Assembly: GCF_002162135.1 (NCBI RefSeq)
Contig: NZ_CP021382.1
Span: 3,718,001 to 3,782,000, forward strand
Reading direction: 5' to 3'
DNA length: 64,000 nt
From: Cellvibrio sp. PSBB006
GTDB taxonomy: Bacteria > Pseudomonadota > Gammaproteobacteria > Pseudomonadales > Cellvibrionaceae
Position numbers and translations under genes: made by a program
Notes under the pieces: generated by a model
The model's database searches: none
The model's input: only the letters and a program-made list of their open reading frames with translations
What the model was told of the DNA's origin: nothing
In this document: in pieces, positions 14,591 through 63,257 of the stretch
Position numbering within the stretch: position 1 is the first letter of the stretch
Layout of the letters: each line of letters starts with the position of its first letter

Positions 14591-16324
14591 TCAGTTAAGC
14601 TGCCAGAGTTGATTGCCGCCGCCGAAATAATCCCACTGCTGGATGTTGGCGCCATCGGCGGTGGAATTGCCTTCCACATCCAGTGATTTCCCGCTCAGTA
14701 CTGACAGAATGCGGTAAACATCACCCACCGACTCAATACGCCAGCGTTGGTTGGCTCCGCCGCCATAGCTCCATAAATGAATATTCGCGCCATTTTCGGC
14801 GGACACATTCGCCACATCCAGCGCCCGCCCGCTGTGAACCGCTTCAATACGATATTCATTATTCCCCAGTGCCGTGATTTGCCAGCGCTGATTGTTGGCC
14901 CCAGTGCGGGTCCAGAGCTGCACATTCGCGCCGTTGCTGGTGGAGACATCCTGCACATCCAGGCTCTTGCCGCTACCCACATTGATGATCTCGTAAATCC
15001 CGTTGGTAATTGCACCGTCTCCAGGACCGCCAGGGTTAGTGGCTCCGTTGTGTTTTACGGCATCGTAAAACCCCTGGTGCCACTGAATGCCAGCGCTGCC
15101 GTTGGCAATATTGTTGCGCGCGAAATCCAGCATGCCCTGATAGGCACCGGCCGGCGGCGTACCGCCGTTGTTGATGAAGTTTTTCACCTGGTTGTAGATG
15201 TTATTGGGCTGCACTGTCCAGAGCGTGCGGTCATGGGACATCTTTTTAAACGACCAGGGGAAATGACCGGCGATGTTGTTGATCGACCAATCCGTTGCCG
15301 TGCGAATGATCTCGTTGGTGTCTTCGCCATACTCGCCGAGGATCAGCGGGATGTTCAGCCGATTGGTGATGTCATCGCGGGTGTACATATCAGCCAGCGC
15401 GCCGGCATTGCCGAAGACATAGTGATGCGTTTCATAGACGAGGTTGTTGTCCCAGCGAGTTGTTACCCCCGTAGCTGCTTGCGTCGCAGGATCAGTCCAG
15501 TCAAGCACCTGCAATTGCGACGCCCACCAGCCACCTTCGGCCACGATGATGTGGTTGTTATCTACCGAGCGAATCGCGTTGCGCAATTGGATCAGCGACG
15601 GCAGCAGCTCATATTCGCGGCCTGGCGGCAGCACCGGTTCGTTGATCAAGTCATAACCCCAGATCATGGGTTCGTTCTTGTAGCGGTTGGCGATATGGCG
15701 CCACACCTGGCTGGCGATCTGGATATTGTTGCCATCCCAGAATTTCACGGAATCCCGCGGTTGGCTGGAGTTGGAGTTCATATTGTCACTGTGGTCGCCG
15801 GGATTCTGGTAACCGGGCGCAGCGTGCATATCCAGCAGGATATAAATACCGTGGGTGCGGCAGTACTCAATCAACCGATCAAAATACTGAAAACCGTGAT
15901 CGCTGAGTTGGCCGTTTTGCCAGAACATGTTGTAGTGAAAGGGCACGCGCACGGAGTTAAAACCCAAGCCAGCCAATTCAGCAATGGCGTGTTCATTGAC
16001 GTAATTCAGGCGCCATTGGTGTTCAAATTCCCGCGCGTTAGCCATGCCGCCCAGCGCGCTGCCGAGGCTATTGAGAAATTGCGTATGGGTTCTATAGTTG
16101 AAATCGCCCATCATCAAATAACCTTCCCACAGCAACCAGTTCCCCAGGTTCATGCCAGTGAAATAAATTTCATTGCCATTGCCGTCGAGGATGCGGGTGC
16201 CTTGGGTATGCACATATTGGCTGTGGGCTGAGACTGAAAAGAGCGTCAGTATTAACAGGATTGCGCTGTAAAAGCGGCGGTGTGATCTTGCAAAAAAACG
16301 GTGTAGTCGGGCCAGGATAGACAT
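14591..16324 (-). CDS. Secreted GH5 glycoside hydrolase with C-terminal ricin-type (CBM13-like) domain
   Basis: A 577-residue exported endo/exo-glucanase-type enzyme. Basic N-terminus with a signal peptide ending near residue 36; GH5 (beta/alpha)8 catalytic domain (about 40-400) beginning FTGMNLGNWLLWEGYL. Acid/base Glu229 lies in YDLINEP and nucleophile Glu331 in LILGEYGE. A Gly/Pro linker near 430 leads to three ricin-type repeats (about 440-577), each with GKSLDV-like and QxW motifs (NQRWQI, NQRWRI, NQLWQL). The NLGNWL start recalls GH5 members acting on beta-1,3- or mixed glucans, but the substrate cannot be fixed by eye. GGAG precedes the start by 8 bases. It is monocistronic. Confidence 0.92.
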   Translation of the reverse strand: MSILARLHRFFARSHRRFYSAILLILTLFSVSAHSQYVHTQGTRILDGNGNEIYFTGMNLGNWLLWEGYLMMGDFNYRTHTQFLNSLGSALGGMANAREFEHQWRLNYVNEHAIAELAGLGFNSVRVPFHYNMFWQNGQLSDHGFQYFDRLIEYCRTHGIYILLDMHAAPGYQNPGDHSDNMNSNSSQPRDSVKFWDGNNIQIASQVWRHIANRYKNEPMIWGYDLINEPVLPPGREYELLPSLIQLRNAIRSVDNNHIIVAEGGWWASQLQVLDWTDPATQAATGVTTRWDNNLVYETHHYVFGNAGALADMYTRDDITNRLNIPLILGEYGEDTNEIIRTATDWSINNIAGHFPWSFKKMSHDRTLWTVQPNNIYNQVKNFINNGGTPPAGAYQGMLDFARNNIANGSAGIQWHQGFYDAVKHNGATNPGGPGDGAITNGIYEIINVGSGKSLDVQDVSTSNGANVQLWTRTGANNQRWQITALGNNEYRIEAVHSGRALDVANVSAENGANIHLWSYGGGANQRWRIESVGDVYRILSVLSGKSLDVEGNSTADGANIQQWDYFGGGNQLWQLN

Positions 16325-19024: not shown

Positions 19025-20206
19025 TCAATACCAGAACGACCAATACAGTCGGATTACATCTGCATCGAAGTTGTATAAAGGCTCCTGGCCAAACTGCATA
19101 CCCTCCTCACGCGCGAGTACATTGCGGAAATCTTCGTAATCGAACTGGATGCGATCCCAGTACAAATTCACGGTGCTTTTATCAAACCAAGGGACAAATC
19201 CCGCTGGTAATTGGTAGGTAACGCCGAGCCCGAAGGTGGTGGTGGTGAGAGGGCTGAGTTCCTTGTCGCGGCCCATAAAGTTTTGATAATTGGCGTAGGG
19301 AAAGAGGTCACTGTAGAAGTCGGCTTCGGTCTGTTCGTAGGCGCGGTATTTTAATTCGAACAGCCACTCTTTGTAGGGATGGGTGTAACGCACTTCGTAG
19401 TTGCTGGCTTCGATGCCCCAGCTATCGGAGAACTCCCGGTAATCGGCACGAATGGCGGCGCGATAGGGTAAATAATAAATGGCGCGCACGCCGAAAGCAT
19501 CGCTATTGTGGGTATTGGGATATTTTTCTTCTGCTTCGCTGCGTGAACTGCATACGGAATTTACGCCATCACCATCGTTGCAAAAACGCATCACGCGATA
19601 GGGATTTTGAAGGTAGCCTTCATCAACAGCACTTTCCACGCTCAGTGCAGCAATCAGATTTTTAGTAAGAATCTGTGAGACATTAATGCTGTAGCGACGG
19701 CGTTCTGCATCGCGTTCGCCGAATTCCGGTCGATCATTACGGCTGATAATGTCATCACCAAAACTGGTGTTGAGGCTGACGGTGGTCAGGTCGCCAAAGA
19801 ATGTCTGGCTGACACTGAAACTGTAGGTGGTTGAGTCGAAATCATTTTCTTTACTGGTGGAATAGCCCAGGTTAAATGTAGTACGGTCGTGCAGATAGAC
19901 CAGCCCTAAATCTTTTTGCTTGCGTTCTTCGGCGTAGGGGCTCGCGCCGGATTCCACGTCCGCGCCGCGCGCGGCGACCACATCAATGGAGGCGCCGCTG
20001 ATGCTATCTACATAATACTGGCCGGAAATCGACACCGAATTGCCTAGGTTTTTGCGTACCAGAATCGCGGGGCCATCGATCTGCGTGCCGCCGCCTTCGT
20101 AGCTGTGGTACATGATATCGATGCGTTCGTCGGGCAGGACATCGGCACGTGCACTACTGACACATGAAAGCAGTGCAAAGCATAATAAAAGCCGGTAAAT
20201 ACGCAT
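19025..20206 (-). CDS. DUF3570 outer-membrane beta-barrel protein
   Basis: A 393-residue exported protein with a signal peptide ending SARA (about residue 21) and then many amphipathic strands. These alternate with acidic loops, ending in the aromatic RLYWSFWY typical of BAM-inserted barrels. The composition (VSISGQYYVDSISGASIDVV near the start, TTTFGLGVTYQLP near the end) matches DUF3570, a family nearly always encoded beside DUF4266 and a thioredoxin. It begins 4 bases after the DUF4266 stop and is the last gene of the leftward unit. Function unknown; a pore or scaffold for the surface redox proteins encoded upstream is a reasonable guess. Confidence 0.87.
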   Translation of the reverse strand: MRIYRLLLCFALLSCVSSARADVLPDERIDIMYHSYEGGGTQIDGPAILVRKNLGNSVSISGQYYVDSISGASIDVVAARGADVESGASPYAEERKQKDLGLVYLHDRTTFNLGYSTSKENDFDSTTYSFSVSQTFFGDLTTVSLNTSFGDDIISRNDRPEFGERDAERRRYSINVSQILTKNLIAALSVESAVDEGYLQNPYRVMRFCNDGDGVNSVCSSRSEAEEKYPNTHNSDAFGVRAIYYLPYRAAIRADYREFSDSWGIEASNYEVRYTHPYKEWLFELKYRAYEQTEADFYSDLFPYANYQNFMGRDKELSPLTTTTFGLGVTYQLPAGFVPWFDKSTVNLYWDRIQFDYEDFRNVLAREEGMQFGQEPLYNFDADVIRLYWSFWY

Positions 20207-20210
20207 GCTG

Positions 20211-20450
20211 TTAATTACAGCCACAGCCGCCTCCCGCACCACCATCGCCACCCCGTGCTGCTTCCCGTGCATCGTATACGTGATGCAAATAACCGCTGGA
20301 AACCGGATCGCGATCAAAACTCATCAGCGGATCAGCAATGTTTTGCCGCTCATAAGGTTTGACCCAGGGTTCAATGCGCCCGCAGGCGCACAAGCTGAAT
20401 ACGCCGATCAACAAAAGGGCACGAATGGCTTTAGGTGCTGTGGGAGTCAT
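20211..20450 (-). CDS. DUF4266 mini-lipoprotein with Gly-rich CGC tail
   Basis: A 79-residue lipoprotein: signal peptide with lipobox CACG (Cys at about residue 23), conserved WVKPYERQNIADPLM followed by HHVYDAREAARGG, and a C-terminal tail of glycines ending GGGCGCN. The tail, with two cysteines at positions -4 and -2 from the end, is a hallmark of DUF4266. It could bind metal, form a disulfide or carry a modification; none is established. Its ATG overlaps the TlpA stop (ATGA, 20450-20447), so it is translated together with the thioredoxin, which may act on these cysteines. Confidence 0.88.
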   Translation of the reverse strand: MTPTAPKAIRALLLIGVFSLCACGRIEPWVKPYERQNIADPLMSFDRDPVSSGYLHHVYDAREAARGGDGGAGGGCGCN

Positions 20451-20929
20451 TCGCGGATCAGCTCCCGAATCTGGTCGCGGTATTTATTTTCGTCGCCGGC
20501 TTTGTAACCGCGATTCACGAAACGCACTTCGCCTTTTTTATCGATTACCACGGTAGTGGGCATAGCGTCCACTTTGTAGAGCTTGCTCACTTTACTGTCG
20601 GGGTCGTAAAGCACTGGCAGGCTCACACCCAGATCTTCAATCAATTTTTTGGCGGCAGCGGTGTCCTGCTCAACGTTCACGCCATAGAGTTCAAAACCGG
20701 CTTTGTTGTAGCGTTTGTACATGTCATCCAGCAAGGGCATTTCGGTACGGCAGGGACCGCACCAGGACGCCCAGAAATTCAGCATCACCACCTTGCCGCG
20801 CTGTTCGGCCAGGCGCACGTTCTCGCCGCTTTCGCTTTTTAGCGTGAAGTCCGGGGCGGGGGCGGCGTGGGTGAATGTGGCAAAAGCCAGCAGAAAAATA
20901 ACACTTAAACCGGGCAGAGATAACTTCAT
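20447..20929 (-). CDS. TlpA-family periplasmic thioredoxin
   Basis: A 160-residue protein with a cleavable signal peptide (1-22) and a TlpA/ResA-like thioredoxin domain: PDFTLKSESGENV, MLNFWASWCGPCRTEMP (active site WCGPC), and the cis-proline AMPTTVVID. Such proteins reduce disulfides outside the cytoplasm, for example in cytochrome c maturation. Here it is embedded in a run of exported heme- and cysteine-bearing proteins and translationally coupled to DUF4266. That suggests it keeps the CxC tail or the CxxCH cysteines of neighbours reduced before cofactor attachment (inference). No membrane anchor beyond the signal peptide. Confidence 0.93.
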   Translation of the reverse strand: MKLSLPGLSVIFLLAFATFTHAAPAPDFTLKSESGENVRLAEQRGKVVMLNFWASWCGPCRTEMPLLDDMYKRYNKAGFELYGVNVEQDTAAAKKLIEDLGVSLPVLYDPDSKVSKLYKVDAMPTTVVIDKKGEVRFVNRGYKAGDENKYRDQIRELIRE

Positions 20930-20947
20930 AAAACGACTCCTGCGAAT

Positions 20948-21622
20948 TTAGAAAAAGAGTGACAGGCCGATGCGGCCTTCGAGGTTATGGGTTTCCTTGC
21001 TCTCGCCGAACAACTCATGGGTGAACACATGGTCGCGCATGCTCAAATCGAAGGATACCCAGTCGGTGGCGAAGAAACGCAGACCGGCTCCAAAGTTATA
21101 GGTGAAATAATCCTTGGACGCGAACTGCGTATTGCCGGCACCGGCGATTAAGTAAATGCGCGTGTTAAAGGCCCATTTATCACTGATCTGGATCTGGCCG
21201 GGAAACAGGTTGTAACCCAGCGACAGGTTGTAATAGGTGAGATCGCGCTCTTCATCGGTGAGCAGCTCCACACCGCCGCTGAGCAATTCATAACTGGTTT
21301 TTTGCAAACGACTCATGCCGTAAGTTGCCTCGGCAAAAAAATCTTCGGTGATGTGGTAGGCCATGGTGACCCCGACCACGTCATTGGTACCGAAGTCTTC
21401 AATGCCCAGCAAACCGTAGAATGCTCCGAACTCAAAATTCTCACTGTCGATCATTTCTTCCTTGATGGTGCGACGCTCGATATCCGGCGAGATAATCTGG
21501 CCCAGTTCGTCCTCATCATCAGCGCCCTGCGCCAGGCTCAAAGGTGCACCGGCCCACAAGAGGCATCCCACGCACAGTGCTGCTGTACGTATCAGAAAAA
21601 GATGTTGAAACCGACTTTCCAT
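20948..21622 (-). CDS. Outer-membrane beta-barrel protein
   Basis: A 224-residue exported barrel. Signal peptide (about 1-32), a charged linker (DIERRTIKEEMIDSENFEFG), then about eight amphipathic strands with alternating aromatics, ending RIGLSLFF with the terminal Phe used for BAM recognition. It resembles the small OMP domain often annotated as 'outer membrane beta-barrel domain' (TIGR04565-like). The start overlaps the end of the upstream SH3/barrel gene by 31 bases; no later in-frame ATG leaves the signal peptide intact. 18 bases separate it from the TlpA gene. Confidence 0.82.
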   Translation of the reverse strand: MESRFQHLFLIRTAALCVGCLLWAGAPLSLAQGADDEDELGQIISPDIERRTIKEEMIDSENFEFGAFYGLLGIEDFGTNDVVGVTMAYHITEDFFAEATYGMSRLQKTSYELLSGGVELLTDEERDLTYYNLSLGYNLFPGQIQISDKWAFNTRIYLIAGAGNTQFASKDYFTYNFGAGLRFFATDWVSFDLSMRDHVFTHELFGESKETHNLEGRIGLSLFF

Positions 21623-22392
21623 TCATTGACCTCTTCATTGTCGTTGCGGCTGGTCAGGATCATGTGGTTGGTGTATTCAACGCGCATGAAAAAGCGGCCG
21701 GTCAAGTGGATATAACTACCGAGGCTGGCCTGGATCAGCGTGTCTTTGCGATCCTCCGGCTCTACCAGGGTGGCGCTCGGCAGGGTTTTGATTTCGCCGG
21801 TGCCGAGGCTGAAAAAGGGTGAGATTCGCCATTCGGGAAAGGGCTGATGCAAGAGTGCGACGGCGAGAATCTGGCTGTCGGAAAACTGCCCCGTGTTTTG
21901 CGCCACCCGCAGTTCGGCGGTGAGATTCTCGGTAAAGCGATAGCCCAGTGTGCCTGTCAATGAATCCGCCCCGTCAAAATCCCCCAGAGCCACACCCAGC
22001 TCAAAGCGGTCGGTGAGGTAATCTTCTTGTTTTGAATCGGCGAATTCGGGTGGTTGGCCATCGGGGCCGAGTGTGAACTGCAAGTCGCTGCGGCGCACCC
22101 AGCCGGTCTTGCCGCGATAGGTTTTGATCTTGATCCAGTCCGTGCGGCTTTTCAGTAACGTAATGGTTTCACCGCGCTCCACAACATGGAACACCGGATA
22201 ACCCCGACCGGGACCGTTGTGCACATTGATGAAGGCATCGTTAACGGTAACTTGCGGATCATCGTCAGCCCAGGTGCCGGGGCTCAGGCACAATCCGACA
22301 CACAGAAACAACAAACCGCCGATGCCTTTGAGGCGGCGGCGGTGTAACGCGGAGCAGAAGTCCCAAAGGGATAGCGATACAGCGTTTATCAT
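21592..22392 (-). CDS. SH3b-domain outer-membrane beta-barrel protein
   Basis: A 266-residue exported protein: signal peptide ending TWA (about residue 42), a bacterial SH3 domain (INVHNGPGRGYPVFHVVERGETI ... GKTGWVRRSDL, about 50-110), then a small beta-barrel (about 135-266) ending EWKVGFNIFF. The SH3b part probably binds peptidoglycan or a partner in the periplasm while the barrel sits in the outer membrane. ATG 22392 lies 4 bases after the stop of the heme lipoprotein gene; an in-frame TTG at 22425 would overlap it. The barrel resembles that of the next gene, suggesting an ancient duplication. Confidence 0.82.
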   Translation of the reverse strand: MINAVSLSLWDFCSALHRRRLKGIGGLLFLCVGLCLSPGTWADDDPQVTVNDAFINVHNGPGRGYPVFHVVERGETITLLKSRTDWIKIKTYRGKTGWVRRSDLQFTLGPDGQPPEFADSKQEDYLTDRFELGVALGDFDGADSLTGTLGYRFTENLTAELRVAQNTGQFSDSQILAVALLHQPFPEWRISPFFSLGTGEIKTLPSATLVEPEDRKDTLIQASLGSYIHLTGRFFMRVEYTNHMILTSRNDNEEVNEWKVGFNIFF

Positions 22393-22396
22393 CGTT

Positions 22397-25159
22397 TTAT
22401 TCTTGAATTGGGTCTGCCGAGTCAAATGGGTTTTGGTAATAGCGGGCGCCGAGATCGATCCACTCCCGTAGCAGTTTTAACTCACTATTGTTCAAAAAGC
22501 CAGAATGGCTGCCATTCTCTCTGAAGCGATCAAAGAAACGCCCGCTGCCACGCGAGTTGCCGCGCGCGATGCTGGCCGGGGTTTCAAAGTATTCCGGGTC
22601 GGGAATCGGGTTGCCCTCTTCGTCTACCAACGGTAGGCCTTCGGCATCCAGCAAAAATTCCGGCACGGTGACGACGTTACCCACCTCGTCCACTTCCCGG
22701 CCTGGGCGTGCATTCAATAACTCGAAATAGGAGACCATCTCGGTATTCTGGCGTGGTGCGCGCGTCAGGTTGAGTTGAATGGCGCCAGTCAGATTCTCGT
22801 TGGTGACATCGGCAATGGTTGTGCTGCCAGCGTGACAACCGATGCAGTTAAAGGGACGGAGGTTGCCCAGCTCATCAACAACGTTAGCTGATGTGCGCTC
22901 GCGCTCCCACAAATGCTGGATATGGTTTTCGTAATTGATCACGATGCGGCAGGTGCTGTTCCAGTTGTCCATGCAACCTTTGTTCTTGAGCGGTGCCTTG
23001 AGCGTGGATTGCTCCGAGTCGCCGGGCACCAGATCCAGGTAACGGTAGGCAAAAGCATCGTCGCGCGGGCGGCCGGGTGCCAGTGCGGGATCGGTCCACT
23101 CATCGACAAAGAGGAGATCCACGGTGGGCTCACGCAATTCGCCGGCGACATAGACATCCGGGTCGCCGACCTGCGGCCCAGGCGCTGCGAAATAGGTGCG
23201 CGCTGCAAACTCGGCCATGGTTTCGCCGGGCTGCGGTGTTTCCGGTGTACCGAACTGATCAAAGCGCTGTGTGCCCGGAAACGCCACACCGCCAGCGGCG
23301 CCGGGGTTGATGGAGTCCGGCACGATATCCGCGCGGCTCACCGGTTGAGTGGCGCTGGTGTTGAGGCAGCCATTGCATTCGCGGCGCTCGCCGGGGCGCA
23401 ACTGCATCCAGTAGGTGGCGTTGTTGCTGATGCGCCGACCTTCGCCATCAAGCACTTCAATGGTAAAGGCGATATCCGCAGGCACCTGCACCAGCACCGA
23501 GCCGTCCGGCTCTACCGGGGTATAACCGATGATCTCGCGCAGGCCGGTATTCTGATTGAAGCGATTGCCGTACACCGTGTCTTCCTGTTCATCAAGCACG
23601 TCGTCATCGGCTATGGACACGGCCTTGACGATGCGCAGAAAGCGTGCCGGCCTGTCAGCGGCAGCCGTTTGTGCGGGGTTGGCCAGTGTGCCGAGGTTCA
23701 GGGTGTCGGGGTTAACATCAGCGAGATTACCGTCGTACACGCTGGGAATATGCAGGGTGCCCAGATCGGAGTTTGTTGTGGTGGGCGCGATATAGGTTTG
23801 TGCCGCGCGCGGTTCCAGGATAACCGCCTCGGTGAACATCCGCCCTTCTTCGCCGAGCACCACCGGTTGCTGGGTGTCGTCAGCCATGTTGTAAATCCAG
23901 ATGCCGAACAACGGCGGTGCGATTTCAGTTTCTTCATTTTCCCACCACTCGTCGGTGCAGGGCACCAGCCGCCCGGTGTCGATCACTTGCATCCGGCATT
24001 GGCTCCAGCTCACCAGCAGGCGATTGGTGCCGTCGAACAGCGGGTGTAGAGAGCTGAACACGCCATTACGTGAGCGCTCGTCATCGGTAATGATGTCCAG
24101 ATGGTAAATCCGCTCTTGCGCTTCGCCGCCGCTGCCGTTGATGGGCACTTCGTTTTCAACAAAATTCTCCGTATCAATCACCACCATGTCACCGCCGAGG
24201 AATTCGCTGCGACGCTTAAAGATGGCGGCTATACGACGGTCGGACATCTCCTGCGGGCGGAACAAGGTCAGGGATTCATCGCGGGGGGTGGTGTTGAGGC
24301 TGTTAAAGCCATAGTGATATTGCAGATCGGTACCGTCCGGGTTGACGGTATAAAGGCTCAGGTTATTGCGCCCGGCCTGGTCCCAGCGGACAAACAGGAT
24401 GCGCCCGTTATCCAGCACTGTGGGTTGCAGGTCGTGGCTCTGGTTGTAGGTGATCTGCTGAATGTTGGTGCCATCATTATCCATCACATGCAGGACAAAG
24501 GCGGGCCCATCGTTACCTTCTTCCTGGGCGGTGTACTGGGGCTTGTTGTCATCCAGCAACATGCCACGACTGCGGGTCTGGCGGGTGGAACTGAACACGA
24601 TGCGGTCGTCCGGCAGGTAGCGTGGGCTGACGTCATGACCGGCTTCGGCAATGATGTTGGAGGTAATGACCCGGCGCAGCACTTTATCCACGAGATGGTA
24701 TTCCCAGATATCCCACTTGGGCTGTTCGTCATCATCGGCGTTGGGAATCTCCGGCGCGCGCAGAGCGAACAATAAACGGTCGCCGTCGGGGTGGATGCTC
24801 AGGTCTTTTGCATCGTAATTGGGTGCTTCGGGATCGAACTCATCGGTGGCGATAAAGGCCTCGTGGGTGATGTTTTCTGCGGCGGCCAGCGCCGTAGCAC
24901 GAGGTTTTACAAAAATTTCAGCGCCGGGGTTAAAGGCGGCCGGGTCGAGAATATCCAGTGGCAGCAAGGTTTCCGGATCGTCTTCATCGGTCGGCAAGGG
25001 GCGATCAATAAACGCAACCGGCAAATCGAGCGTGACCGGGTCCGGACTTTGGCCGCCGCCCTCACTGCCGCCACCTCCGCCGCCACAGGCGGTGACCAAC
25101 AAGCAGACAAGCCACAGAGGCGAGCTGTGTATGAGCGATGAACGGAGATGGTGGATCAT
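22397..25159 (-). CDS. Heme-binding beta-propeller lipoprotein with HzsA-like middle segment
   Basis: A 920-residue lipoprotein (lipobox LVTAC followed by a glycine run). Residues about 90-440 hold PD40/TolB-like propeller blades (LSIHPDGDRLLFA, RYLPDDRIVFSSTRQT). A middle segment near 560-610 (EPDGSVLVQVPADIAF ... LRPGERRECNGC) matches the segment named after the hydrazine synthase alpha subunit in many non-anammox proteins. There the usual CxxCH is CNGCL (595-599), lacking the heme-ligand His. A true heme motif CIGCH stands at 772-776, and the C-terminus has the cytochrome-like LREWIDLGARYY. It is the first gene of the leftward unit. Substrate unknown; hydrazine chemistry is not implied. 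Confidence 0.85.
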   Translation of the reverse strand: MIHHLRSSLIHSSPLWLVCLLVTACGGGGGGSEGGGQSPDPVTLDLPVAFIDRPLPTDEDDPETLLPLDILDPAAFNPGAEIFVKPRATALAAAENITHEAFIATDEFDPEAPNYDAKDLSIHPDGDRLLFALRAPEIPNADDDEQPKWDIWEYHLVDKVLRRVITSNIIAEAGHDVSPRYLPDDRIVFSSTRQTRSRGMLLDDNKPQYTAQEEGNDGPAFVLHVMDNDGTNIQQITYNQSHDLQPTVLDNGRILFVRWDQAGRNNLSLYTVNPDGTDLQYHYGFNSLNTTPRDESLTLFRPQEMSDRRIAAIFKRRSEFLGGDMVVIDTENFVENEVPINGSGGEAQERIYHLDIITDDERSRNGVFSSLHPLFDGTNRLLVSWSQCRMQVIDTGRLVPCTDEWWENEETEIAPPLFGIWIYNMADDTQQPVVLGEEGRMFTEAVILEPRAAQTYIAPTTTNSDLGTLHIPSVYDGNLADVNPDTLNLGTLANPAQTAAADRPARFLRIVKAVSIADDDVLDEQEDTVYGNRFNQNTGLREIIGYTPVEPDGSVLVQVPADIAFTIEVLDGEGRRISNNATYWMQLRPGERRECNGCLNTSATQPVSRADIVPDSINPGAAGGVAFPGTQRFDQFGTPETPQPGETMAEFAARTYFAAPGPQVGDPDVYVAGELREPTVDLLFVDEWTDPALAPGRPRDDAFAYRYLDLVPGDSEQSTLKAPLKNKGCMDNWNSTCRIVINYENHIQHLWERERTSANVVDELGNLRPFNCIGCHAGSTTIADVTNENLTGAIQLNLTRAPRQNTEMVSYFELLNARPGREVDEVGNVVTVPEFLLDAEGLPLVDEEGNPIPDPEYFETPASIARGNSRGSGRFFDRFRENGSHSGFLNNSELKLLREWIDLGARYYQNPFDSADPIQE

Positions 25160-25601
25160 GGCGTTTTGCCCTGCACAAGAAACGGGTTGGGGATGATAGC
25201 TCAATCATGGCAGTCAATTGCCGCAAGTCGTTATTGCCGGCCGATGTCCGGTGGACGCTGGCGCCTGAATGGGATATCGCCGCACGGGAGCCACATTCTC
25301 AGTTAAGCCTTGGCGCCAATCTCTCGATCTGGTCACGCTTTCGCATCCATTGCCAAATACCTGCGAACAGGCTTCTAACAAGCTGGCTTCTAAAAATAGC
25401 TGAATTCTATGCATCTGGCTGTTTCGTCGATGGCGGAGCAGCGCTGAGGGTGGCGCGTATTAACGAATCTGTGAACCGGTCGACAATGTGGATGCAAGCG
25501 AGCCACAGGTTTATACCGTTCGGCGACATATAATCAGTGGCGAACAATTAGCCTGCTAGACTGATTTTTCAGTCGAGGCAGAACAAAAATCTGGAGCAGC
25601 C
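25160..25601. other. Divergent regulatory region between the two heme-protein units
   Basis: 442 bases without a credible gene; one open frame through it on the plus strand has no signal, no ribosome site and no recognisable composition. Divergent promoters for the units starting at 25159 (left) and 25602 (right) must lie here. I see no clear -35/-10 pair or operator repeat. Confidence 0.45.
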
Positions 25602-26855
25602 GTGACCACACAAGCCTTTTTTTCATCTGGCAGACCTGCCGGATGGCGTCCTTCTGTGCATCGCCGAATGATGTCCGGTGCCCTATTGCTCGTTTCCCTA
25701 CTCGCGTCCATCGCTATGGCCGGTCCTCGGGAACAGGCGTTGCAAATTCACAACCGCATTGCCGGGGTGCCACCCTCAGAGGCCGTACTCTTGCAGATGG
25801 CCAACCTTATCAACACCAATGACGTGGCCGGTGCCGTCGAAGTGGCGATGGATAACGAAGCCTTCTACAGCGTTACCCTCAAGAATATGGCCACGCCCTG
25901 GACCAATCGCGAACAAACCGTCTTCGCCCCATTGAATGATTACACCGCCACCTTTATCGGCCTGGTGCGCGATGAAGATGACTTCCGCAAGATTCTCTAT
26001 GACGACGTCCTCTATACCAGCAACGCAGGTGGCTTGCCCGCCTACGCCAATAACAACAATAACCACTACGAAGCGCTGGAAACGGCGGGCCACAGTTTAA
26101 AGAACACCTTAATTCGCCGTACCCAATCTTCGGTTAACGGTTTGCCAGCCAACGCCACTTCCGGGGTACTGACTACCCGCGCAGCGGCCAAGGCCTTCTT
26201 TATTGCCGGCACCAACCGCGCCATGTTTCGTTTCACCCTGATGAACCATCTCTGTCGCGACCTGGAGCAAGTGCATGACACCTCACTGGTGCCGGACCGT
26301 ATTCGCCAGGATGTCAGCCGCAGTCCCGGCGGTGATAGCCGGGTCTTCCTGAACAGTTGCATCGGCTGCCACAACGGCATGGACCCTATGGCCCAGGCCT
26401 TTGCTTATTACGACTATGAATTCGATATCGATGCCGACCCGGAAGGCCTCAACGGCAGTATTCACTACAACACCGAAGCGGATATCGACCCGGATACCAA
26501 TAGCCGGGTAGAAAAGAAATACCGCATTAACTCCTCGACTTTCCGCTATGGCTTTGTCACGCCGGATGACCAGTGGCAGAACTATTGGCGTAAAGGCCAG
26601 AACGCTGCACTGGGTTGGGATGCCAGCCTGTCCGGTGCCGGTAATGGCGCGAAAACCATGGGCATGGAGCTGGCTCACAGCCGGGCATTTGCCCATTGCC
26701 AGGTAGAAAAAGTATTTCGCAATGTCTGTCTGCGCCGTCCTGCCGATACTGCGGATCGCGCGGAGCTTGACGCTATTACTGATAGCTTTGCCAGCAGCAA
26801 CTACAACCTGAAACAGGTATTTATTGAAACTGCTGATTATTGCAAAGGGCCCTGA
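25602..26855 (+). CDS. Exported mono-heme DUF1588/DUF1592-like protein
   Basis: A 417-residue exported protein starting with GTG after GGAGC; signal peptide about 1-40 ending SIAMA. The body resembles a shortened planctomycete-type DUF1592-DUF1588 protein. An early segment TIGLVRDEDDFRKILYDDVLYT precedes a segment with SGVLTTRAAAKAFFIAGTNRA, a single heme motif CIGCH (253-257) followed by NGMDPMAQAFAYYDYEFD, and a C-terminal VFRNVCLRRP. The CHxGxDP pattern after the heme is typical of that group. It is first gene of the rightward unit and lies 74 bases before the LamG lipoprotein. Function unknown; electron transfer or polymer attack at the surface is possible. Confidence 0.78.
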   Translation: MTTQAFFSSGRPAGWRPSVHRRMMSGALLLVSLLASIAMAGPREQALQIHNRIAGVPPSEAVLLQMANLINTNDVAGAVEVAMDNEAFYSVTLKNMATPWTNREQTVFAPLNDYTATFIGLVRDEDDFRKILYDDVLYTSNAGGLPAYANNNNNHYEALETAGHSLKNTLIRRTQSSVNGLPANATSGVLTTRAAAKAFFIAGTNRAMFRFTLMNHLCRDLEQVHDTSLVPDRIRQDVSRSPGGDSRVFLNSCIGCHNGMDPMAQAFAYYDYEFDIDADPEGLNGSIHYNTEADIDPDTNSRVEKKYRINSSTFRYGFVTPDDQWQNYWRKGQNAALGWDASLSGAGNGAKTMGMELAHSRAFAHCQVEKVFRNVCLRRPADTADRAELDAITDSFASSNYNLKQVFIETADYCKGP

Positions 26856-26929
26856 TCCAGAGCCACCAGACGTGGGAATGCCGGTGCTGTAAGCAACCGG
26901 CCCAAGATTAAAAACATCAGGTAATTACC

Positions 26930-29476
26930 GTGGACACAATGAGCCAACCAAACTTCAACTCTCGCGGTCAATACCGCCCAGGGCTGCTTGTGCTCTCGCT
27001 GCTTTTCACCACCTTGCTGGCATTGGCGGGTTGTGGTGGTTCGGGCAGCGGTGCCGATACTGTGACGGAGCCCCCACCCAATAACGGTGGAACAGACGAT
27101 GACTTCGTTTATAAAGGTACAAACCCGGCTGCCACTGACGATGTGCTCAAGTTCCAGACACGTTTGTGGGTCAATATAGCGCCGCCAGATCGCTGTGGCA
27201 GTTGTCACGGTGATAACGGTCAGCAACCGACGTTTGCTCGCGGGGATGACATCAACCTTGCTTATGCTGCGGTGATTGATAGCGGTTTAGTGGATTTGGG
27301 CAACCCATCCATGTCGCGCCTGGTGACCCGGGTAGTCGGTGGCCACAACTGCTGGGAAGCTGATCCGGTTGTGTGCGGCGATATCATTACCACCTGGATT
27401 GCTGCATGGGCGGAAAACAGCGGGACGGAAGCCAACTCCATCGTGCTGACCCCGCCTGAAGAGCGCGATGTCAGTGACAGCAAGAGTTTCCCTGATTCAC
27501 CTGATGCCTTCGAAGATACTGTTTATCCCTTGTTGACCCAATATTGCGGCAGTTGCCATGCCGAGGGTGCTCTCACCCGTCAACAACCTTACTTCAGCAG
27601 CACCGATGTTGCAGTTGCATATGAAGCCGCCAAGGCGCGGATGCGGCTCGATAACCCCGGTGCCTCGCGCTTCGTGCAGCGCCTGGGGACCGATTTCCAT
27701 AACTGCTGGGATAACGATTGTGCAGCCAGTGCCGCAGCCATGCGCGACGCTATCCAGGCGTTTGCTGACACCATCGAGCCGACGGTGGTGGATGAAAACC
27801 TGATCATGAGTAAAGCGGTTGGTCTGGCTGATGCGTTCGTCGTCAGTAGCGGCGGTCGTATCGATACCGACCTTATCGCCAAATACGAATTTAAAACCGG
27901 CACCGGCACCATCGCATACGACACCAGCGGCGTGGAGCCAGCCACCAACTTGAACCTGTTCGGTAATGTGGGCTGGAGCAGCGCCTGGGGTGTTCGCTTT
28001 AATGATGGCGGCAAAGCCCAGGCATCAGCGGGCAGCAGCCGCAAGATTTACAACCTGATTCGCGGTGCCGGGGAATACAGTATCGAAGCCTGGGTTATTC
28101 CCGATAACGTGGCCCAAGGCGACAACGATAATAATCCTGCACGCATTGTCAGTCTCTCGGGTACGGCGACCGAGCGTAACTTCACCCTCGGGCAATACAA
28201 CTACAACTACAGCTTTATGAATCGCACCAATCTGAGCGATGCCAATGGCTTGGTTGAGTTGGCCACTGCCGATAATGACGAGCGTCTGCAAGCCACATTG
28301 CAGCATGTGGTGGCTACCTTTGATCCCGTGAATGGTCGCCGCATCTATGTCAACGGTGAATATACCGGCGATGAAGATCCGACCCCGGGCGCTGTGTTGG
28401 CTGATTGGAACGATAGTTATGCGTTGGTCGTAGGTAACGAGACCTCGAACAACCGTATGTGGCAAGGCAGCATTCGCTTCCTCGGTATTCACAATCGGGC
28501 CATGGCGGCGGAAGACATCGTGAAAAATTTCGAAGTGGGCGTGGGCGCGCGCTACCTGTTGCTGTTCAACATTTCCGAACTCATCGATGTGCCGCTCAGC
28601 TTTATCGTGTTTGAAGTACAGCAGTTTGATGATTTTGGCTACCTGTTTAACCAGCCGTTCTTCACCATCCTGGCTGACCCGGAAACCGGTACGACCGCTC
28701 AAATGAATGGTGGTGTTGATCTTGAAGGTATCCGCATCGGCATCAATGGTGCCGAGGTGATGGTGGGGCAAGTGTTTGCCAACCTGAATACCGAATTACG
28801 GCAAGATCAAATGGTTGAAGGACGGCAAGTACTGTCGACCTTGGGAACGGTTGTCGAAGCCAAACGCGGCCCGGATCTGGATGAGTTTTTCCTGACCTTT
28901 GATCGCATCGGCACCCACAGTTATGAGCGCCCAGAACCCAGCGTACCTTCGCCGGTAGCGCCGTCTGACGTAGAAGGCCAGGCTGTGATTGGCCTGCGTA
29001 CCTTTGCGGAAATCAATGCCACCTTGTCCACCCTGACAACGGTACCGGCTACTACCGCTGCCGTGGCGACAACGTATACCAATGTGCAGCAACAGTTACC
29101 CACGGTTCCCAATATGGAAGGCTTCCTCGCCGCCCACCAGATGGGGGTGACGCAGCTGACTGTGTCTTATTGCAATGCGCTGGTTAATGACGCCAGTCGC
29201 CGGACCAGCTTCTTCCCCGGCTTTAACTTCGGTGCAGCACCGGGTGCAGCTTTCACTGTTACGGGTCGCGAACAGGTTATTGAACCCTTGCTTGAAAAAT
29301 TATTGGCCCACGAAATTGAGGGCACCAGGTTGGATGTTCAGGCTGACCCGGATGAATTGCGGTTGGAGTTAAATCAGCTGATTGATCGAATGACAGCGGG
29401 CAGTACCGGCACCACGGACGTGGTGATGGCAACCTGCGCGGCGGCATTCGGCGGCGCTGTGATGCTGCTCCAATAA
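26930..29476 (+). CDS. LamG-domain lipoprotein with two CxxCH heme motifs
   Basis: An 848-residue lipoprotein: lipobox LALAGC (Cys near residue 35) and two cytochrome-like segments with CGSCH at 89-93 and 206-210. Each is followed by a similar block (NLAYAAVIDSGLVDLGNPSMSR, VAVAYEAAKARMRLDNPGAS) that looks duplicated and ends with a conserved HNCW. A LamG/concanavalin-like domain (about 320-535) contains YSIEAWVIP and RIYVNGEYTGDEDP. The C-terminal 300 residues are unassigned. GTG 26930 is chosen because AGG lies 7 bases before it; an ATG three codons on is the alternative. LamG implies carbohydrate or protein ligand binding at the cell surface. Confidence 0.83.
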   Translation: MDTMSQPNFNSRGQYRPGLLVLSLLFTTLLALAGCGGSGSGADTVTEPPPNNGGTDDDFVYKGTNPAATDDVLKFQTRLWVNIAPPDRCGSCHGDNGQQPTFARGDDINLAYAAVIDSGLVDLGNPSMSRLVTRVVGGHNCWEADPVVCGDIITTWIAAWAENSGTEANSIVLTPPEERDVSDSKSFPDSPDAFEDTVYPLLTQYCGSCHAEGALTRQQPYFSSTDVAVAYEAAKARMRLDNPGASRFVQRLGTDFHNCWDNDCAASAAAMRDAIQAFADTIEPTVVDENLIMSKAVGLADAFVVSSGGRIDTDLIAKYEFKTGTGTIAYDTSGVEPATNLNLFGNVGWSSAWGVRFNDGGKAQASAGSSRKIYNLIRGAGEYSIEAWVIPDNVAQGDNDNNPARIVSLSGTATERNFTLGQYNYNYSFMNRTNLSDANGLVELATADNDERLQATLQHVVATFDPVNGRRIYVNGEYTGDEDPTPGAVLADWNDSYALVVGNETSNNRMWQGSIRFLGIHNRAMAAEDIVKNFEVGVGARYLLLFNISELIDVPLSFIVFEVQQFDDFGYLFNQPFFTILADPETGTTAQMNGGVDLEGIRIGINGAEVMVGQVFANLNTELRQDQMVEGRQVLSTLGTVVEAKRGPDLDEFFLTFDRIGTHSYERPEPSVPSPVAPSDVEGQAVIGLRTFAEINATLSTLTTVPATTAAVATTYTNVQQQLPTVPNMEGFLAAHQMGVTQLTVSYCNALVNDASRRTSFFPGFNFGAAPGAAFTVTGREQVIEPLLEKLLAHEIEGTRLDVQADPDELRLELNQLIDRMTAGSTGTTDVVMATCAAAFGGAVMLLQ

Positions 29477-29548
29477 CGAGGCTCAGCCTTCAGGCTTATA
29501 AACGATTACGACACAACGACTACGATACCCAGTAGCGAAGGAAATACC

Positions 29549-31141
29549 ATGGCTAAACGCAGACCTCCACTCCACCCCGATGCGCCGTTGCTCCTCAACA
29601 GCCACCGGCGGCCGGTGTCCCGGCGTGAATTGATTGCGCAGGGCTTTAAAGCAGGTTTCGGTACGGTTCTCGGCGGCTCGGTGTTCAGTTTGTTCGCCAA
29701 TCCGCGCAAAGCTGAAGCGGCGCTTTCTGCTGATGTCTCGGCAGCTCGTGATGCTTGCGGTATCGCTGCACAAGGTGCAGGTAAGATCCCCTTTATTTGT
29801 TTTGATCTGGCTGGCGGCGCCAACATCGCCGGCTCCAACGTGCTGGTAGGCAAGCAAAACGGCCAGCTGGATTTTCTCACCGCCAGTGGTTACAGCAAAC
29901 AAGGTTTACCAGCAGAGATGGTGCCCAATGCATCGGTCGGTGACTTCATCAATACTGATCTCGGCCTTGCGTTCCATTCCGATAGCCAAATGCTACGCGG
30001 CATTCTTGAGAAAGCAGTCGCCGCAGCGCCGGCAACCAATGGTGCGGTGATTCCGGCGCGCTCTGAAAACGATACCGGCAACAACCCTCACAACCCTATG
30101 TACGGTATCAATCGCGCCGGCTCAAACGGATCGCTGCTGGCATTGATCGGTTCCCGCGCCGGTGATTCCGGTGGTAATTCCATGGCACCGGCGATGATGA
30201 TCAATCCCGAAGTGCGGCCGACTAAAGTCGATAATCCGCGCGACGTGACCGGCCTGGTGGATGTAGGTGATCTGGTCGGTTTGCTCAGCCAGGAAGATAC
30301 CGTTTCGGTGATGGAATCCATCTATCGATTAAGTAACAGCAAGCTGAACCATGTTGATACAGGGACTGGTGCGAAAGATGCTGTCCTGAAAGAAATGATG
30401 CGCTGCGGCTATGTCAAAAGTGCTGACCTGGCCGATCGCTTTGGTGATCCCTCGGCCATCAACCCCGAAGCTGATCCGGATATCGTCGGCCCTACCGGGG
30501 TCTTCAGTGATGCAGAGTTCGATGGCGACGGTGAATTCCGCAAAACCGCCTCGGTAATGAAGTTGGTGGTAGAAGGCTACGCCGGTGCTGGCACCGTCAC
30601 CATGGGTGGTTACGATTACCATACGGGTGACCGCTCCACGGGCGAACAGCGCGACCTGCGTGCTGGTCGTTGCATTGGCGCGTGTCTGGAATACGCCGCT
30701 CGAAAAGGTGTGCCCCTGATGATTTACGTGTTCAGTGATGGCTCGGTATTCAGTAATGGCATGTTGGATATGTCGGAAGAAGGCCGCGGCAAAGGTGTCT
30801 GGACTGGCGATGATCAACAAACGGCGTCTTCATTCTTTTTGGTATACAACCCAGCGGGTCGTCCGGCATTAATCGGTGGTACTGCCGCTGAACAGGCGCA
30901 GCATCAACAGATCGGCTACATGCGTGCCAGTGGCGATGTTGAAACCGCCTCAAGCCCGGTCGCCAATAATGTGAATTTGCTGGTAGAAATGGTGATATTA
31001 AATTACATGGCACTGCACAACGAGCAAGGCCAGTTTCCGCTGCTATTCCCCACGCATGGTTTAGGCAGCGCAGCTATGATGGATCGTCTCACCGCGTTTC
31101 AGCCGATATGTAATGGCACCATATCGACGCCGGTAACCTAA
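29549..31141 (+). CDS. Tat-exported DUF1501-like protein
   Basis: A 530-residue protein whose N-terminus carries a twin-arginine signal: SRRELIAQGFKAGFG followed by a hydrophobic stretch (about residues 25-60). The body is DUF1501-like, with FDLAGGANIAGSNVLVG early, GGYDYHTGDRSTGE in the middle and LEYAARKGVPLMIYVFSDGS. Databases often label such proteins 'general secretion pathway protein GspF', which is misleading. Tat export means it folds, perhaps with a cofactor, before crossing the membrane. AAGGAAA precedes the ATG. It is the last gene of the rightward unit and a GNRA-loop terminator follows. DUF1501 proteins pair with heme proteins in planctomycetes; role unproven. Confidence 0.8.
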   Translation: MAKRRPPLHPDAPLLLNSHRRPVSRRELIAQGFKAGFGTVLGGSVFSLFANPRKAEAALSADVSAARDACGIAAQGAGKIPFICFDLAGGANIAGSNVLVGKQNGQLDFLTASGYSKQGLPAEMVPNASVGDFINTDLGLAFHSDSQMLRGILEKAVAAAPATNGAVIPARSENDTGNNPHNPMYGINRAGSNGSLLALIGSRAGDSGGNSMAPAMMINPEVRPTKVDNPRDVTGLVDVGDLVGLLSQEDTVSVMESIYRLSNSKLNHVDTGTGAKDAVLKEMMRCGYVKSADLADRFGDPSAINPEADPDIVGPTGVFSDAEFDGDGEFRKTASVMKLVVEGYAGAGTVTMGGYDYHTGDRSTGEQRDLRAGRCIGACLEYAARKGVPLMIYVFSDGSVFSNGMLDMSEEGRGKGVWTGDDQQTASSFFLVYNPAGRPALIGGTAAEQAQHQQIGYMRASGDVETASSPVANNVNLLVEMVILNYMALHNEQGQFPLLFPTHGLGSAAMMDRLTAFQPICNGTISTPVT

Positions 31142-31162: not shown

Positions 31163-31192
31163 ATTTGCCCTGCGTAAGCGGGGCAAATTTTT
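31163..31192 (+). terminator. Intrinsic terminator of the rightward heme-protein unit
   Basis: An 11-base stem (31163-31173 pairing with 31178-31188, one T-G pair) closed by a GTAA tetraloop and followed by T's (31188-31192). It stands 21 bases after the DUF1501-like stop. Confidence 0.88.
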
Positions 31193-33561: not shown

Positions 33562-35040
33562 TTAGGGCACAACCTTCACCGACATCACATTAGAAGCCGC
33601 TGACTCCCCACTCTCATTCTTCGCAATAACACGATAATAATAAGTCTTACCTTTTTTCAACTTTCCATCATCTTTAAACAACACATCAGTGCTTGGATTA
33701 AATTCCTGAATGCCGTCAGAAATATTATCGCCAATCACTTTCCATGGGCCTTTGGATGCGGTGGCGCGTTCAATTCGATAAAAACGGCCGACGGGAGAGC
33801 CCATCCAGGTGATAGCTTTGGTGGGGTCTTCAATATCACGCAGTACTGGCGCTTCCGGTATTGGCAACGGCGGCGCTTTGGATTGGCCGTTCATTTGCGC
33901 CTGGGCTTTGCGTACCAGGTCGACAACCGCTTGCTCTTCATTGGGTTCACCTTCCGGGAAACCGGGCAGATGATAGCTGTAGTGGCCGGTGTATTCCTTA
34001 TGCCAATAAAAACCGCCGTTGTGGCGATGGCCGCGAAATCCCCAGATAAATGCACCGGCGGCGCGCGCGCCCTTGTGTTGAGTGTGCACGGCGGCTTGCA
34101 TGATGTCGTTCAGTCCTTTTGCATCGCGCAATCCGAATTCGCCGATCAGATAGACTTTTTTTCCATCGATTGCTTTTAAATCTTTTAAGACCTGATCGGG
34201 GTTGTTGTTGCCGTTGGTGGTATAGAAGTGGTTGGAGATAATGTCGATGTTAGGATCTTCCAGCGCAAATTTATTAACGGTCAGGTAGGTGCCGTCAATC
34301 ACCAGATGATTTTTATCCAGCGACTTAATCAGTTCGGCGGTTTTCTTCAAAAAAGGTTCAGTGGATTCTTTTAGTTCGTTGCCGGTTTCCCACGCCATGA
34401 TGGCTTTTTCGTTGCGGTATTCGCGCCCGGTAATCGTGTTCTTACGTGTAATAACCTGCTCGACAATGTGCAAATAAGCCGCAAAGGTTTTGCTATTGAT
34501 ATCGTGCAAGGCGGTTTCGGGCTCGCCGTAAAACGCGGCCAGTTGCTCTCGCCCACCCCACCATTTCCAATGGTCGACAAACGGTAAGATCAACCGCAGA
34601 CCGTGCTTGTCGGCGAGCGCGATCATACGGTCGTAATGCACCATGGCGGTCTCATTCAAACGCGGCATGCCATTGGGTGTTGTGGGTTTAAGAATGTGGG
34701 TTTCCCGTTCACAGGCGGCATCATGCGCGGTTTCTACCGAGAGCACATAAACCCGCATCGCTTTGTGGCCGGTGTAAACCAGAGATTTGATCCAATTTTC
34801 CTGCTCTTCGGCAGTGGGCCATTGAAAGTACTGGCCCCAGCCGCGCGGGTCAGCTTTGCAGGGGCCCCGGGCGTCATCTTCTATACGGTGTAATTCGGGT
34901 GCGTGAATACCGGCAAAGCGGAATTCTTGCGCGCCATCCAGCAAGCGGTGGCCATCGCGGGTAATAAAATGCTCGAACGCCAATGCGGGTAAGGTGAGGG
35001 CTGTGCCCAACACAAAGGCTAATAAACGCAGGAGGGTCAT
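33562..35040 (-). CDS. Secreted GH5 hydrolase (mannanase-like) with C-terminal fibronectin III domain
   Basis: A 492-residue exported enzyme: signal peptide ending ALA (about residue 21), GH5 barrel (about 22-385) and a C-terminal Fn3-like domain (about 395-492: KTYYYRVIAKNESGESAASNV). Acid/base Glu222 is in WETGNEL and nucleophile Glu301 in LIGEFG. RFAGIHAPELHRIED, the WKWWGG loop and WETGNEL recall the GH5_7 beta-mannanases, a group well represented in Cellvibrio. The exact substrate is inferred. AAGGA stands 6 bases before the ATG. An ACCGGT palindrome upstream may be the operator of a sugar-responsive repressor. Confidence 0.87.
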   Translation of the reverse strand: MTLLRLLAFVLGTALTLPALAFEHFITRDGHRLLDGAQEFRFAGIHAPELHRIEDDARGPCKADPRGWGQYFQWPTAEEQENWIKSLVYTGHKAMRVYVLSVETAHDAACERETHILKPTTPNGMPRLNETAMVHYDRMIALADKHGLRLILPFVDHWKWWGGREQLAAFYGEPETALHDINSKTFAAYLHIVEQVITRKNTITGREYRNEKAIMAWETGNELKESTEPFLKKTAELIKSLDKNHLVIDGTYLTVNKFALEDPNIDIISNHFYTTNGNNNPDQVLKDLKAIDGKKVYLIGEFGLRDAKGLNDIMQAAVHTQHKGARAAGAFIWGFRGHRHNGGFYWHKEYTGHYSYHLPGFPEGEPNEEQAVVDLVRKAQAQMNGQSKAPPLPIPEAPVLRDIEDPTKAITWMGSPVGRFYRIERATASKGPWKVIGDNISDGIQEFNPSTDVLFKDDGKLKKGKTYYYRVIAKNESGESAASNVMSVKVVP

Positions 35041-60780: not shown

Positions 60781-60787
60781 AAATGTT

Positions 60788-61561: not shown

Positions 61562-61575
61562 TTTTTGAGGACCGC

Positions 61576-62154: not shown

Positions 62155-62160
62155 AAAAAA

Positions 62161-63111: not shown

Positions 63112-63112
63112 T

Positions 63113-63222: not shown

Positions 63223-63257
63223 CTCCAATCGGACATTGGATTTTCGAGGAATAACTT

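Follow-up and report, generated by a model that had tools for sequence, protein, structure and literature searches.

Luciano et al. (2011) described a Gammaproteobacterial 'core complex' (AglRQS-GltCDEG) to which no function was assigned (PMC3169522). In Myxococcus, the Glt (gliding) and Nfs (spore coat) machines are described as combining a motor, periplasmic TPR proteins, outer-membrane barrels and surface parts (PMC3858216). A module of DUF3570, DUF4266, thioredoxin and ApbE was reported by Meheust et al. (2021); flavinylation of DUF3570 was demonstrated for Chlorobium luteolum, and the describers of the module call its role uncertain (PMC8238504). Planctomycetes and Verrucomicrobia have PSCyt-PSD proteins with DUF1501/DUF1552, and in Verrucomicrobia there are PSCyt genes that carry carbohydrate-binding domains (PMC5615132).

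The window analyzed here is a stretch of 64,000 nucleotides from Cellvibrio sp. PSBB006 (NZ_CP021382.1). At 19025-31141 it holds nine genes for exported proteins in two divergent units, A-F on the minus strand and G-I on the plus strand (Table 1). ORF and family searches found all nine at the positions given in an earlier note on this DNA, and the tallies of that note (three lipoproteins, three barrels and one each of TlpA, mono-heme and Tat protein) were correct. The start of A near 20206 was picked by the signal peptide, the ORF itself opening at 20317; judging by its signal peptide, G may begin nearer to 25668. No convincing shared regulatory motif was observed in the F-G gap when 65 gaps were compared, and terminator-like sites across the whole region were not in excess (14 versus a shuffle mean of 13.0). 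No described function for the set was found in the open-licence literature; the note, too, knew of none.

Table 1. Features of the nine-gene locus in window coordinates
Feature	Coordinates	Strand	Assignment	Basis
A	19025..20206	-	DUF3570 outer-membrane barrel, predicted ApbE target	PF12094 138.7 bits, cut-off 25
B	20211..20450	-	DUF4266 small lipoprotein, C-terminal CxC	PF14086 80.1 bits, cut-off 27
C	20447..20929	-	TlpA/ResA-like periplasmic thioredoxin	PF00578 115.9 bits
D	20948..21622	-	Outer-membrane beta-barrel, OMP_myx_plus	TIGR04565 171.4 bits, cut-off 60
E	21592..22425	-	SH3 domain and outer-membrane barrel	PF08239 46.1 bits, cut-off 27
F	22397..25159	-	Lipoprotein with PD40 beta-propeller, HZS_alpha middle domain and C-terminal CxxCH	PF18582 57 bits, cut-off 26.6
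F-G gap	25160..25601	.	Divergent promoter region separating the two units	Gap comparison
G	25602..26855	+	Exported mono-heme protein, PSD2/PSCyt3-like	PSD2 family, one CxxCH
H	26930..29476	+	Lipoprotein with two CxxCH helical segments, LamG lectin domain, second beta-sandwich and helical C-terminus	
I	29549..31141	+	Tat-exported protein, predicted alkaline-phosphatase-superfamily fold	
3' of I	31163..31188	+	Terminator-like stem-loop	11 pairs then TTTT; consensus match only

When 14 window proteins (the nine and five flanking controls) were compared by tblastn with 60 loci of relatives, which span up to 20 kb and in some cases end at contig ends, all nine genes were found together in 43 loci. 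The layout was the same in 42 of these; in the other (L062) the TlpA gene was placed elsewhere. Partial sets were present in the remaining 17 loci (11 GHI, 3 FGHI, and one each of ABDEFGHI, DEFGHI and ABCDEGHI), and the five flanking control genes in 0 of 60. The earlier note had named a lack of co-conservation as evidence against its surface heme/redox set; because the genes are co-conserved, that objection fails and the set was borne out as a co-conserved unit. Export signals were retained as well (counts here and below include the window protein in n and exclude ORFs that are truncated at the edge of a locus or contain a stop): the lipobox Cys was found in 46/47 F, 59/61 H and 46/46 B proteins, and the Tat RR in 56/57 I proteins. 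Among 299 genomes sampled from the phylum, with unspecified class make-up, seven carried gene I, all of them Gammaproteobacteria. No relative appeared among 34 pattern matches for viral carriage.

The core complex of this genome is clustered in one place, 129 kb from the nine-gene locus; in Microbulbifer the putative inner half adjoins the nine genes. Where it follows them, the order is apbE, an uncharacterized gene, three genes for TPR proteins, one for a TolQ/ExbB-type channel, two for ExbD proteins and one for a TonB-like protein that has an AgmX/PglI tail. The nine genes and all nine core markers were present at one locus in 15 of 80 loci, 13 from Microbulbifer and two from MAGs (L160, with apbE at the far end, and L170). 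ApbE adjoined the core (locus L105, 260 bits) and lay within 10 kb in 29 of the 80 loci, and in eight Rheinheimera/Arsukibacterium loci gltD-gltE-aglRQS-gltG stood directly before GHI. The two collections of loci overlap in part (e.g., L090/L122, L091/L126 and L048/L168) and are therefore not independent sets. When GHI stood alone, A-F were in one operon with the core elsewhere in all six genomes inspected. Among 370 genomes of the class, in raw counts that ignore kinship, the 52 with gene I contained a GltC-like gene in 50, DUF3570 in 50 and an AgmX/PglI tail over cut-off in 49 cases; the respective numbers for the 318 genomes without I were 43, 48 and 40. All four markers lay no more than 30 kb apart in at least 17 of the 52 genomes, and at least 38 had I or DUF3570 at a distance of up to 30 kb from the GltC-like gene or the tail. 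Two genomes carry I and show no core gene or DUF3570, namely G087 (one contig, 100% complete), which retains F, G, H and I, and G057, in which I is a fragment at a contig end. At the level of gene order and co-occurrence, these data show that the nine window genes are linked with the core; for the genome of the window itself, where the loci lie so far apart, the link is drawn solely from homology.

The AglR-like channel of this genome matched PF01618 (MotA_ExbB) with 104.8 bits (cut-off 22.9), the AglQ/AglS-like proteins matched PF02472 (ExbD) with 50.4 and 58.1 bits (cut-off 25.4), and the AgmX/PglI tail of the GltG-like TonB-like protein scored 77.0 bits (NF033768, cut-off 40); the full-length GltG and GltJ models were under cut-off. 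The membrane Asp was kept in 26/26 AglS-like ExbD proteins, and the proton site of the AglQ-like ExbD was Asn in 13/26 and Ser in 13/26. The GltC-, GltD- and GltE-like identities fit the TPR repeats, size and gene order; the NCBIfam GltE model, whose cut-off is 225, gave 49.1 bits and was outscored by a generic TPR family. Like the published Gammaproteobacterial core (PMC3169522), this one is a single cluster of an ExbB/TolQ channel, two ExbD, TPR proteins, a TonB-like GltG and an extra gene. Here, however, ApbE and the nine-gene outer-membrane/heme/flavin set go with it, and the available main text of that paper contains neither the word 'heme' nor 'cytochrome'. The layout of the Myxococcus Glt and Nfs machines is likewise shared by description, whereas a heme, flavin or Tat part goes unmentioned in the available text of PMC3858216. 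The genome holds a second such machine, whose F-like lipoprotein has no CxxCH and carries a fibro-slime domain (102.5 bits, cut-off 45).

Cores without redox parts also exist (23 inspected), and A-F with a core and no GHI were seen too; the redox part is therefore dispensable for some such machines. In A-F clusters without GHI, F had three heme motifs. Redox-linked cores clustered in a quick GltD-like tree of 74 rows, from which proteins with a score of 400 or less or shorter than 700 aa were excluded (7 changes versus 19.7 when shuffled, 0/500). A single origin of these cores was rejected, since the supported branches of that tree force at least three changes. We also dropped a general heme link of Agl-Glt cores. 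MtrCAB-like genes were found near core L223 and a 21-CxxCH protein beside core L225, but 20 further cores had no ORF with three or more CxxCH, leaving multiheme neighbors at 2 of 23 cores without A-F.

DUF3570, DUF4266 and a thioredoxin were all present in the window by Pfam, A being the sole PF12094 match in the genome; together with ApbE, these are the four components of the published flavin module. However, the DUF3570 protein is divergent here (138.7 bits versus up to 454 in other genomes of the class), its motif is degenerate in relatives, and the module is linked with a motor and with heme proteins. The available main text of PMC8238504 contains no instance of 'ExbD', 'TolQ', 'MotA' or 'gliding'. 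The relaxed ApbE site D-x-x-[ST]-x-A-[ST] was found in 45/46 A proteins and the strict form D-x-x-[ST]-G-A-[ST] in 5/46. The window protein has two [ST]GA[ST] motifs; two were seen in 1/46 rows and none in 38/46. In B, the C-terminal CxC and GGGCGC were each kept in 46/46, and both Cys of the CxxC of C in 45/45. The barrels had been called gammaproteobacterial, a description that is incomplete, as D belongs to OMP_myx_plus; E scored 26.0 bits with the same model (TIGR04565), under the cut-off of 60.

Two CxxCH motifs were present in 43/47 F and 54/61 H proteins, and one in 59/59 G proteins. In this genome the first heme motif of F is CNGCL (Leu codon CTC) where His stands in 44/47, so that one of the two standard motifs is retained. 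F matched the alpha subunit of hydrazine synthase (PDB 5c2v) at E 7.5e-8, with the middle heme domain in common and a weaker match over the propeller and C-terminus; it differs in being a lipoprotein and in its gene setting. Hydrazine synthesis was rejected, as the NCBIfam alpha equivalog gave 46.2 bits against a cut-off of 800. The word Gammaproteobacteria is absent from the available part of a 2025 survey of hydrazine synthase homologs (PMC12758564). The lectin jelly-roll of H was nearest to an arabinan-binding domain of AbnA. G had been described as a mono-heme DUF1588-like protein: the single heme motif stood, but PSCyt3 (DUF1588) was detected in 1/26 members at E≤0.01. PSD2 (DUF1585) was found in 24/26 at that threshold (the window protein, with 25.6 bits, is 0.2 under the Pfam cut-off of 25.8), in agreement with the partial likeness to planctomycete PSCyt/PSD proteins that had been proposed. 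Protein I had been called DUF1501-like. No Pfam family, DUF1501 and DUF1552 included, matched the window protein at E≤1; neither domain was found in 18 members at E≤0.1, and DUF1501 had zero matches genome-wide. However, the fold of I is predicted to be alkaline-phosphatase-like, a class that also includes sulfatases and phosphoethanolamine transferases, and the claim holds to the extent that the predicted fold belongs to the same wider class. A PSD2-type mono-heme protein beside an alkaline-phosphatase-fold Tat protein, together with LamG, resembles the PSCyt-PSD pairs (PMC5615132), from which the locus differs in a short G without other PSD domains, in an I undetected by DUF1501/DUF1552, and in its partners. 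Querying the PDB with the sequences of I, G and D returned nothing useful, and no oxidase family was detected across the nine genes.

Judged by gene set, co-conservation, linkage, families, motifs and predicted folds, the nine genes probably belong to a pmf-driven envelope machine of the Agl-Glt class and code for its half in the outer membrane and at the surface, with the core as its inner half. Such machines look widespread in bacteria, and the motor looks related to the myxobacterial gliding motor. AglRQS would drive GltG, and GltC/D/E would relay the work across the periplasm to an outer-membrane platform formed by barrels D and E. We infer that the lipoproteins F, with its propeller and heme, and H, with its lectin domain and two hemes, together with G and the Tat protein I, would be exposed at the surface as working parts or cargo of one complex. 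A thiol-flavin chain may run from TlpA through the DUF4266 CxC to FMN attached to DUF3570 by the linked ApbE, with electrons exchanged with the surface hemes; their order and direction are as proposed here. H would bind a glycan or other surface polymer, the presumed substrate, and redox chemistry or electron exchange would take place at that site, with the motor moving, loading or opening the assembly. It is a tentative further step that the motor mechanically works the heme/flavin lectin complex, so that surface redox and directed movement would be one device with the Gammaproteobacterial Agl-Glt core as its engine.

Surface assembly, electron transfer and polymer attack had all been listed as candidate jobs in the earlier note. 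Because the other half appears to be an AglRQS/Glt-type motor with ApbE, assembly or transport was raised and the other two, as free-standing functions, were lowered, the nine genes being half of a motor-linked system. The nearest rival is an Nfs-like machine in which the task of the motor and the Glt-like parts is to move or wrap a glycan, H holds the polymer, and the redox proteins oxidize or cross-link it or keep surface proteins folded. Agl-Glt/Nfs systems are described as transporting slime and spore-coat polymer at the surface (PMC3858216), and the AbnA-like jelly-roll of H, the fibro-slime domain in the heme-less F-like lipoprotein of the second machine, and the fold class of I all fit. 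However, polysaccharide-synthesis genes were absent among the conserved neighbors and three conserved heme proteins would be left unexplained, and we regard this reading as rather unlikely.

A role in attacking surface polysaccharides by oxidation, an idea put forward earlier for PSCyt proteins, would suit polysaccharide-degrading carriers such as Cellvibrio, Gilvimarinus and Microbulbifer, the GH5 genes nearby, and the carbohydrate-binding domains of the Verrucomicrobial PSCyt genes (PMC5615132). The neighboring GH5 genes were not co-conserved (gene N), however, and no oxidase family was found in the set. The set is also carried by Sedimenticola MAGs and a tubeworm endosymbiont MAG. Sedimenticola and the tubeworm endosymbiont are sulfur-oxidizing autotrophs, and these carriers weaken a polysaccharide-only function; oxidative attack seems very improbable. 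Extracellular electron transfer or metal reduction in its own right, with the motor genes as mere neighbors or energizing the outer membrane in the manner of TonB, is also improbable. The flavin module and heme proteins, the multiheme genes near L223 and L225, and the iron transporter sometimes included in DUF3570 clusters (PMC8238504) are consistent with it. However, with one or two heme motifs apiece, F, G and H fall far short of a multiheme wire, the multiheme neighbors are confined to those two of 23 cores without A-F, and the regularity of the motor linkage exceeds what chance would give.

The motor-linked reading would give the DUF3570/DUF4266 flavin module a concrete partner, and this would be, as far as found in open-licence papers, the first machine of the Agl-Glt class with a link to heme and covalently bound flavin. 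A core that has been without an assigned function since 2011 is now tied to a defined surface gene set in culturable genera, and its job is therefore directly testable.

Matches in Pfam and NCBIfam bore out the view that nine genes with exported products stand at 19025-31141, and their assignments are collected in the table. The host genome is a single contig of 5.26 Mb, of which the window is 3718001-3782000; Gilvimarinus and Cellvibrio were its closest named relatives when compared by gene I. Gene I was present in 33 of 57 near relatives and in 52 of 370 class genomes, corresponding to 44 of 273 genera and 31 families. The co-occurrence search proposed in the earlier note found all nine genes together in 43 of 60 fetched loci, with GHI alone in 11 and other partial sets in 6; the five window genes flanking the nine recurred in none of the 60. 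The A-F unit was opposed to GHI in 42 of the 43 complete loci, the exception (L062) having a displaced TlpA gene. A named genome collection contained at least 568 relatives, and of the 80 best of these, 54 loci held all nine. GH5-type cellulase genes lie on both sides of the region, and the one beyond gene I was not co-conserved with it in the relatives' loci. At the window end, an integron integrase lies beside AT-rich DNA, and together with attC-like imperfect inverted repeats it probably marks where a chromosomal cassette array begins.

Features of the window, the host genome and related loci (window coordinates unless stated)
Feature	Position	Strand	Assignment or remark
Unit A-F	19025-25159	-	
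A			DUF3570 (Pfam/NCBIfam)
B			DUF4266 (Pfam/NCBIfam)
C			TlpA (Pfam/NCBIfam)
D			TIGR04565 barrel (Pfam/NCBIfam)
E			SH3 + barrel (Pfam/NCBIfam)
F	22397-25159	-	PD40 + HZS_alpha lipoprotein (Pfam/NCBIfam)
Unit GHI	25602-31141	+	divergent from A-F
G			PSD2-like, one heme
H			LamG lipoprotein, two hemes
I			Tat protein
GH5-type cellulase gene	14591-16324		
GH5-type cellulase gene	33562-35040		
Integron integrase	59704-60465	-	TIGR02249, 295.3 bits, cut-off 265
AT-rich DNA	60600-64000		
attC-like repeats	61471-61540; 63136-63201		
Core locus	genome 3597294-3608004		
185-aa gene	L105:10650-11207		in this genome's core locus
Second set	genome ~4962500-4978700		L197/L200
Third set	genome ~726300-729000		L198
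Mtr-like genes	L223:13564-18980		
Multiheme gene	L225:2-2176		ORF cut by stretch end

When the remaining ORFs of the fetched loci were clustered, four more families recurred: a TPR protein (20 loci), a protein of about 200 aa (19), ApbE (16) and a large TPR lipoprotein (12). All four are grouped in the core locus of this genome, together with a GltE-like TPR lipoprotein, an ExbB/TolQ-type channel, two ExbD proteins, a TonB-like protein with an AgmX/PglI tail and a small 117-aa gene. This set matches the Gammaproteobacterial core complex in excerpts of Luciano et al. 2011 (PMC3169522), where aglR, Q, S and gltD, E, G, C share one cluster with an extra gene, and the complex is called "of unknown function". 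The AglS-like ExbD kept the membrane Asp in 26 of 26 cases, whereas the AglQ-like ExbD has Asn or Ser in its place, which leaves one of the pair as a possible proton carrier. A 185-aa gene, with no matches in Pfam or NCBIfam, is preserved ahead of the GltC-like gene.

Co-occurrence was scored in the same 370 class genomes, 52 with gene I and 318 without. The GltC-like gene was found in 50 of the former vs 43 of the latter, DUF3570 in 50 vs 48, and the AgmX/PglI tail above cut-off in 49 vs 40 (Fisher p ~1e-32 for each against I, relatedness of genomes ignored). Among I carriers, G057 (with a fragment at the end of a contig) and G087 were exceptions for each of the three markers, while G115 was one for the tail. 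These three markers and I lay together inside 30 kb in at least 17 of the 52 genomes. The nine genes and all nine core markers stood together in 15 loci (13 Microbulbifer, L160 and L170) of the 80 best relatives in the named genome collection, and gltD-gltE-aglRQS-gltG precedes GHI in eight Rheinheimera/Arsukibacterium loci. The linkage of the nine genes to the core is strong. In 6 of 6 inspected GHI-only genomes A-F and the core share one operon elsewhere, and several genomes lacking I carry a single operon of apbE, F, E, D, C, (B), A and the core, with no GHI, which argues that A-F, apbE and the core look like the basic unit and GHI like an add-on.

Excerpts of PMC12052999 state that ApbE attaches FMN at D-x-x-[ST]-G-A-[ST], and that changing the Gly to Ala reduced attachment without full loss. 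In the A family, site 1 read D-x-x-[ST]-x-A-S in 45 of 46, Ser usually replacing Gly; the window's A protein has two strict ApbE sites. In the portions seen of PMC8238504, the DUF3570 protein of Chlorobium luteolum is a demonstrated ApbE target, and DUF3570-DUF4266-thioredoxin-ApbE is a recurring module whose function is called uncertain. The F protein shows similarity to hydrazine synthase alpha (5c2v, E 7.5e-8) but scores far under the NCBIfam equivalog cut-off. In the window's F the first heme motif reads CNGCL, where 44 of 47 have His, reflecting either true loss or a sequencing error. In I-less genomes (loci L208, L210, L214 and L215) F has three CxxCH, and an extra gene of about 170-250 aa, without assigned family, lies between F and E.

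The earlier note knew of no described function for this set, and none was found in a search of the main texts of open-licence papers, where DUF3570 or DUF4266 appears in a single paper. Among the matches listed for AglRQS with the core complex or Gammaproteobacteria, only the 2011 and 2013 Myxococcus papers contain AglRQS; among those listed for AglR alongside ApbE or flavinylation, no paper has AglR. Seven papers contain two of AglRQS, GltD, c-type cytochrome, LamG and fibro-slime, and in the two of these with AglRQS the last three are absent. The products would form a proton-driven envelope machine in which a thiol-flavin chain feeds heme/lectin parts at the surface; its electron direction, movement and substrate are what we infer.

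MtrB/MtrA/MtrC-like genes (products of 695, 306 and 755 aa, the latter two with 10 CxxCH apiece) were seen near an Agl-Glt core, without direct adjacency, in L223, and a multiheme protein with 21 CxxCH immediately downstream of another in L225. In a quick GltD tree the redox-linked cores clustered (7 changes vs 19.7 in shuffles); a single origin was unsupported in this tree, at least 3 changes being needed. The genome of PSBB006 holds a second set with E- and D-type barrels, a core and an F-like lipoprotein (1266 aa, fibro-slime domain, without CxxCH), and a third AglRQS and tail set that lies upstream of an FhaB-like gene and is bordered by genes resembling type VI secretion parts. A further 23 inspected cores were without A-F. 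These sets and cores argue that the redox part is one specialisation among machines of the Agl-Glt class.
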